Shown one piece after another: positions 6,012-27,278 of a DNA stretch of 35,270 nt. A model generated the notes under the pieces. It searched no databases and was not told where the DNA came from. It was given only the letters and a program-made list of their open reading frames with translations. Position numbers and translations under genes: made by a program. The stretch lies in the NCBI GenBank assembly GCA_009995365.1, contig JAACPR010000009.1:1-35270 (forward strand). The letters run 5' to 3'. This DNA comes from Candidatus Parcubacteria bacterium (GTDB lineage Bacteria > Patescibacteriota > Minisyncoccia > Phycocordibacterales > JAACPR01). The number at the start of each line of letters is the position of its first letter. The stretch's first letter is position 1.

Positions 6012-6055
6012 TAATCAAAAAGCACCCCTAATATTATCTTTTCTAAAACACGAAT

Positions 6056-6077
6056 CAGCGACCTACTCGGGTCGCTG
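6056..6077 (+). terminator. hairpin downstream of mreB (candidate terminator)
   Basis: CAGCGACC tactcg GGTCGCTG followed by TTCTCGTTT (weak U tract). Confidence 0.5.
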
Positions 6078-6095
6078 TTCTCGTTTCAACACCAC

Positions 6096-6214
6096 AAACC
6101 ACTAACAACATTATCTCCCTCGTTCCCGTCCTCGACACTGCTTGCGTCAAGGCATAAAGCCATTGACACCGCAGGTCTGCGGAGGAACTCGATAGAAAAT
6201 GTTGTTAGTGGTTT
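6096..6214 (+). repeat. family-A structured repeat, copy A1
   Basis: 17-bp perfect inverted repeat AAACCACTAACAACATT (6096-6112) / AATGTTGTTAGTGGTTT (6198-6214) around an 85-bp core closely similar to 27182-27262. Confidence 0.88.
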
Positions 6215-6270
6215 TATAATTTATGTATATAAATTTAGGACAAAAAGACTTGTTACTACGCTTTAGTTTT

Positions 6271-6371
6271 ACCACCTAAAAATACTTCTTTTCGAGTTTC
6301 TTTGCAGGACTTCCTTTAAAAATATAATTGAGTCCGAAACCAAAACGAGAGAAGAAGTATTTTGGGGTGGT
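6271..6371 (-). repeat. family-B structured repeat, copy B1
   Basis: 21-nt arms ACCACCTAAAAATACTTCTTT / GAAGAAGTATTTTGGGGTGGT (18 Watson-Crick plus 2 G-U) around a core homologous, in reverse complement, to 9574-9636. Confidence 0.86.
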
Positions 6372-9557: not shown

Positions 9558-9653
9558 AGTTTTTTGTATATTTCTCTCTCAAATTGGTTTCGGACTCCGT
9601 TATATTTAAAAGGAAGTCCTGCAAAGATTTTCGATAGAAAATACAAAAAAACT
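9558..9653 (+). repeat. family-B structured repeat, copy B2 (between rplJ and rplL)
   Basis: Arms AGTTTTTTGTATATTTC / GAAAATACAAAAAAACT around a core matching B1: TTGGTTTCGGACTC..TTATATTT..AAAGGAAGTCCTGCAAAGA. Confidence 0.86.
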
Positions 9654-27163: not shown

Positions 27164-27278
27164 GCATCAAAAAATATTATCTCTCTCGTTCCCGTCCTCG
27201 ACCTGCTTTTGTAAAGGTCTAAAGACCTATGACAACGCAGGTCTGCGGAGGAATTCGATAGATAATATTTTTTGATGC
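27164..27278 (+). repeat. family-A structured repeat, copy A2
   Basis: 18-bp perfect inverted repeat GCATCAAAAAATATTATC / GATAATATTTTTTGATGC around a core homologous to A1; left arm begins 2 nt after the murF stop codon. Confidence 0.88.

Follow-up and report, generated by a model that had tools for sequence, protein, structure and literature searches.

In the genome of a Candidatus Parcubacteria bacterium, hairpins at gene ends combine a constant, structured tip with a stem that is, with few exceptions, particular to its site. A possible reading, and the one we tentatively prefer, is that tip modules of 65-82 bp move among gene-end hairpins, with the whole hairpin being kept for a role at the 3' end. 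To our knowledge, the bacterial palindromic repeats known so far spread together with their stems, and we judge the elements described here to be a variant of dispersed palindromic elements that has not been described before. A constant tip on stems renewed at every site would point to structure targeting, to repeated stem renewal, or to an unrecognised class of 3'-end RNA in Patescibacteria-type genomes, and these alternatives can be put to a direct test with the set of copies, the loop they have in common and the sites available in both empty and occupied form.

The stretch of DNA analysed (35,270 nucleotides, hereafter the window) is contig 21 of the 758-kb draft assembly of the source genome, G000, which is small, AT-rich (33.7% GC), of the Patescibacteria type and about 96% complete. 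Comparisons were made with its relatives G002 and G003 and with a genus of another family in the same order (G253, G299 and G300), using G154 as the outgroup. The spacer that separates mreB from a DNA polymerase III delta-prime-like gene contains A1, a complete family A hairpin on the forward strand (6096-6214, with arms at 6096-6116 and 6194-6214), identified from its inverted repeat, fold and family copies, and B1, a complete family B hairpin on the reverse strand (6271-6371), identified from its inverted repeat, fold and covariance model. Both are long inverted-repeat hairpins, and they lie 56 bp apart in opposite orientation, as a preliminary description of the window had stated. The core units, whose ends were set where pairs of near-identical copies stop matching, comprise 82 bp in A1 (6114-6195, forward strand; also supported by core identity) and about 65 bp in B1 (6289-6353, reverse strand). 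The internal loop of the A1 core consists of UC at 6132-6133 and UGC at 6178-6180. Upstream of A1, a family D element with only the 5' half motif present (6023-6087, forward strand; 88% identity to C6:6754-6818) is cut off where the A1 flank begins; the complete D copy is at C6:6761-6893. Further along the forward strand, B2 (9562-9648) is a covariance-model match between rplJ and rplL, and A2 (27164-27278, core unit about 27180-27261) starts 1 nt after a Mur ligase gene, upstream of tRNA-Glu (genes assigned by Pfam). All four hairpins fold far better than shuffled sequence (z-scores of -8.7 for A1, -5.2 for B1, -3.1 for B2 and -9.2 for A2). A search of the window against Rfam 15 returned only two tRNAs at the gathering threshold, and the elements gave weak, microRNA-like chance matches.

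A genome-wide census of G000 detected 32 long inverted repeats with loops of 40-119 nt, against 4 in a shuffled genome, and most of the 32 are elements of families A, B, C or D. A second class in the census, inverted repeats with short loops, looks like intrinsic terminators. Searching the genome with its own elements yielded six complete copies of A, five copies of A reduced to the 5' half and 16 copies of B, together with family C (three copies) and family D (one complete copy and the 5' half in the window). Every complete A and B copy is located at a hairpin tip. The shared start and end first attributed to both families hold for A, which runs from CTCTCGTTCC to GGAACTCGATAG, and, among the four B copies that have a GTTTT helix, for three; they are only approximate for the B copies in the window, where B1 ends in CTCGAAAAG and B2 runs from CTCTCAAATT to ATTTTCGATAG. 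The CTCTCG/CGATAG segment is swapped for other paired sequence in three other B copies, and the only constant ends in G000 are the short CTCTCTCG/CTCGATAG. Truncated A and D copies always retain the 5' half and never the 3' half (C4:11694, C9:3516, C19:100539, C18:37473, C23:6195, and window positions 6023-6087), and in G000 three truncated copies are joined with a C element in a composite that is itself repeated.

A 2x3 internal loop near the tip, formed by YC (5' side) and UGY (3' side), is common to families A, B, C and D and to two additional families found in G003. The asymmetric loop bearing TGCR on its 3' side that had been noted in families A and B is borne out, and generalises to the YC/UGY form, which shuffled sequences of matching composition produce in no more than 0.8% of cases. 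A2, one A copy in G002, families C and D and the two additional G003 families satisfy the strict loop pattern, which requires three outer and four inner pairs. In A1 and the B copies, which fall short of the pattern by one or two pairs, the loop was read by eye. As inner pairs, C, D and the additional G003 families have GGAC..GUCC or GGUC..GACC, and B has GGACUC..GAGUCC. Within family B, 21 of 26 pairs have changed on both sides with pairing kept, and the loop GGUUUC/UGCAAA is nearly fixed. The earlier proposal that A and B belong to one superfamily is thus supported, both by the loop common to six families and by the family A model, which scores B copies at E values of about 1e-8 to 1e-10. 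The two further families lie at G003 C1:309800-309947 and 544855-545001, and one of them is directly behind the orthologue of the window gene that carries A2.

The A1 and C23 cores, which are identical over 66 nt and differ at one position over the 82-nt unit, sit on unrelated arms. In a further A copy the core differs by one base and the arms are different again, and family B likewise has alike cores on differing arms. The unit ends are fixed. Since identical A cores are found with unrelated arms, the arms do not travel with the cores, and we infer that the core is a separable module. Around paralogous flanks in G000 that were considered as candidate empty sites (C2 versus C14, and C24 versus C8), homology begins outside the hairpin. 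Site-unique arms, as originally proposed, are the rule for most copies; the exceptions are three B copies with a common stem, two C24 copies duplicated along with their flanks, and B1 and C19:16794, whose stems are related. Drift of the arms after insertion was considered as the sole cause of their diversity and rejected, as the cores are identical yet the arms unrelated.

The elements are concentrated behind genes, with 20 of 26 beginning at most 28 nt from a stop codon, compared with 15% for random intergenic placement (P=5e-12). Together, their 5' arms contain 179 A, 85 C, 84 T and 11 G (C versus G, P=2.5e-15), whereas the flanks and intergenic DNA are balanced. In their post-stop position, A/C-rich 5' arm and G/T-rich 3' arm they resemble the intrinsic bidirectional terminators of G000, in which the 5' arm is also nearly G-free, if less extremely so. 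They differ from these terminators in having longer stems (median 17.5 versus 11), an AT-rich inner stem over the 8 bp adjoining the core, and a conserved structured tip in place of a short loop. The AT-rich inner stem and long stems indicate that present-day terminators should not simply be equated with the targets. T runs end many of the 3' arms but not all, exceptions being A2 and the B copy at C6:2115. Comparison of ordinary terminators of G000 with those of G002 and G003 revealed conservation little above background, which leaves terminator conservation without power as a test of insertion into existing hairpins.

Covariance models of A and B were run over 299 genomes of the order. Beyond G000, the A model matched 12 times in G002, five times in G003 and twice in G253, and the B model had no match outside G000 among these genomes; copy number among relatives thus ranges from none to over ten. 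A wide DNA-pattern search found element-like folds only in G002 and G003, its other matches looking like chance, and viral contigs gave no B match and two A-pattern matches, neither folding like an element. Copies in G002 and G003 have the same architecture, with mostly site-unique arms. In G002, one pair has common arms plus a few flanking bases, one element is nested inside the tip of another, and one decayed copy has mismatched arms. Ten G002 sites were compared with G003, where no A core was present in the aligned spacers, several of which are too short for one arm. At three gene ends, an element follows the gene in G000 as well as its orthologue in G002 or G003, but the family or the stem differs. 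Among G253, G299 and G300, most sites are unshared; in G253, four element sites, located via protein searches, were compared.

The 3' site of dnaJ, compared in detail, has an element in both G300 and G253; between the two, both partners have changed in four of the five inner pairs and in three of the ten apical pairs. These seven compensated pairs indicate that the dnaJ element was inherited and kept paired, and compensatory helix change at an orthologous site, as used to recognise functional structured RNAs, is found here. The arms at this site have changed no faster than the core helices. The dnaJ spacer lacks the element in G299, where it is 13 nt long with neither arm and no hairpin, and in the outgroup G154, where it is 8 nt long. 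At the 3' site of rodA, the element is present in G253 and G299 and absent in G300. Upstream of a dehydrogenase-like gene (the 'dh' site), the G299 sequence is AAATTTATTTAT-core-ATAAATAAATTT; in G253 these arms form a short hairpin that lacks the core, AAATTTATTTACT-CAATAA-AGTAAATAAATTT; and G300 has nothing.

The 'dh' site bears on the first of two models put forward in the preliminary description, insertion of the element into the tip of an existing hairpin, since one orthologous site there is a short-loop hairpin with both arms, as this model predicts. The G253 loop region also contains ACTCA, which is the 3' end of the element; as a possible remnant it makes core loss as possible as tip insertion, so that either the core was lost in G253 or the target already held ACTCA. 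Orthologous sites, which had been expected to distinguish a mobile element from a vertically inherited RNA, gave a mixed picture, with vertical inheritance at dnaJ and arms with and without a core at 'dh'. Mobility stands in the sense of dispersal, with identical cores at unrelated loci and the relatives' copies mostly elsewhere, but the pattern that had been set against it, shared structures with covarying arms, also occurs, at dnaJ with its seven compensated pairs and in the sharing of the rodA site. The choice between mobile and inherited therefore does not hold: the elements are dispersed, gained and lost, and are also inherited with covarying helices.

The movement of tip modules among gene-end hairpins would be consistent with the identical cores on unrelated arms, the fixed unit ends, the post-stop position and terminator-like arms, and likewise with the six-family loop, the 'dh' arms with and without a core, the persistence at dnaJ and the nested G002 element. 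Against it stand the ACTCA in the 'dh' loop, the long, AT-rich stems, the stems shared by some copies, the hairpin-free empty dnaJ site and the lack of a candidate enzyme in our searches. In the pathway we propose, a gene-end hairpin would gain a copy of the core at its tip, exchange it there or lose it, and a putative enzyme acting in trans may recognise the loop in its folded state, either in single-stranded DNA or in a cruciform. The whole hairpin would then be kept paired because it gives the transcript a 3' end that is terminator-like or protective, with template switching possibly repairing the arms, in addition to this role or in its place. A more specific proposal, that the module picks its target by shape alone, entering gene-end hairpin tips of any sequence while a putative enzyme reads the YC/UGY loop in folded single-stranded DNA or RNA, appears rather unlikely.

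A close alternative to the tip module, itself somewhat unlikely in our assessment, is a vertically inherited class of functional 3'-untranslated RNA, such as a terminator cap or protein-binding 3' end, with cores homogenised by gene conversion or template switching and with old arms that diverged under pairing constraint. The compensated pairs at dnaJ and the shared rodA site, the strong covariation in B, the post-stop position, the conserved internal loops between variable helices, and the three gene ends with elements in several species all argue for such an RNA. However, most sites are unshared between G002 and G003, or among G253, G299 and G300, the copy number is highly variable among relatives, and the decayed G002 copy has mismatched arms. 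We consider it improbable that fold-back copying (template switching), coupled to core insertion or coming after it, made the arms from one flank at each site, although the perfect arms unique to each site fit this and template switching makes perfect stems in one event and repairs them (PMC8794818). A fold-back copy of an arbitrary flank should be balanced, and the 5' arms, in which C outnumbers G by 85 to 11 and A outnumbers T by 179 to 84, are not; simple snap-back, the second model of the preliminary description, is accordingly disfavoured, both by this composition and by the empty G299 dnaJ spacer with neither arm, even if selection for terminator-like arms could add the base bias. Least credible is an ordinary non-autonomous repeat of the MITE or REP type, moving as a complete hairpin whose arms drifted apart afterwards, as the three B copies and the one G002 pair with common arms plus a few flanking bases, and the entire hairpins present or absent at orthologous sites, might suggest, because it needs complete arm turnover while the 82-nt core gains about one change, and it is further opposed by the dnaJ arms, which changed no faster than the core helices, and by the lack of a Y1 transposase match in G000, G002 and G003.

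Among known systems, REP/BIME palindromes, mobilised by RAYT (TnpA-REP) transposases (PMC3733652, PMC6006769), are likewise small, dispersed intergenic hairpins, some bulged, tied to termination and mRNA stability and without a gene of their own. The elements differ from them in consisting of a 65-82 bp core on stems that differ at each site, in residing in genomes (G000, G002 and G003) without a Y1 transposase match, and in lacking a recognised foot: inspection by eye found no constant tetranucleotide, be it GTAG, CGTC or another, at the foot of the hairpins, whose arms vary by site. MITEs have constant terminal inverted repeats in every copy, whereas the arms here are unrelated between copies with identical cores. 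As places to look for a target-site duplication, the dnaJ and 'dh' sites proved too diverged. The palindrome-targeting insertion sequences IS1397, ISKpn1, IS621 and ISPsy8 (PMC1525189) offer a precedent for tip insertion, as ISPsy8 enters the symmetry axis of a predicted REP hairpin (PMC1525189); they encode their own transposase and target one repeated REP sequence, in contrast to a non-coding insert in stems without common sequence. Mitochondrial repetitive or double hairpin elements are also dispersed hairpins of compact genomes, and an RNA route has been proposed for those of Allomyces; their stems are conserved and their loops vary, the reverse of what is seen here (PMC2800124). RNA hairpins made by template switching share the perfect stems and multi-base compensatory changes, but leave the dispersed identical cores and the shared internal loop unexplained (PMC8794818).

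An HUH/Y1 enzyme of the TnpA-REP type had been suggested as the mobilising activity; no match to the PF01797 family was found in G000, G002 or G003 (assemblies 95-97% complete); the controls matched. Three reverse transcriptases are encoded in G000 (C6:8624-9673, C19:15590-16594 and C13:8156-9253), and the small and variable proteins adjoining them, read by eye, point to diversity-generating retroelements; another, in G002 (C1:731-1327), also sits in what resembles such a cassette. Elements border two of the presumed G000 cassettes; the one on C6, located between the EF-G and EF-Tu genes, is flanked by a D element and, at its opposite end, by an A element. In G000, C19:13964-14033 and C6:7020-7089 are near-identical hairpins whose arms measure 24 nt (ATTAGTCACAGTTTCAGGTAGCTA), just upstream of the variable-protein genes of two cassettes. 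The retroelement reverse transcriptase is an unlikely mobiliser, judging from the cores of sister copies, which are free of scattered changes at A.

A separate structure, in which a conserved TTTGCTTAGAGATTTAT stem encloses a loop of 113-115 nt, is present once in each of three genomes (G000 C4:47609-47777, G003 C1:55281-55436 and G002 C22:15904-16070). The G000 copy has no Rfam match, and the structure looks like a vertically inherited RNA gene.
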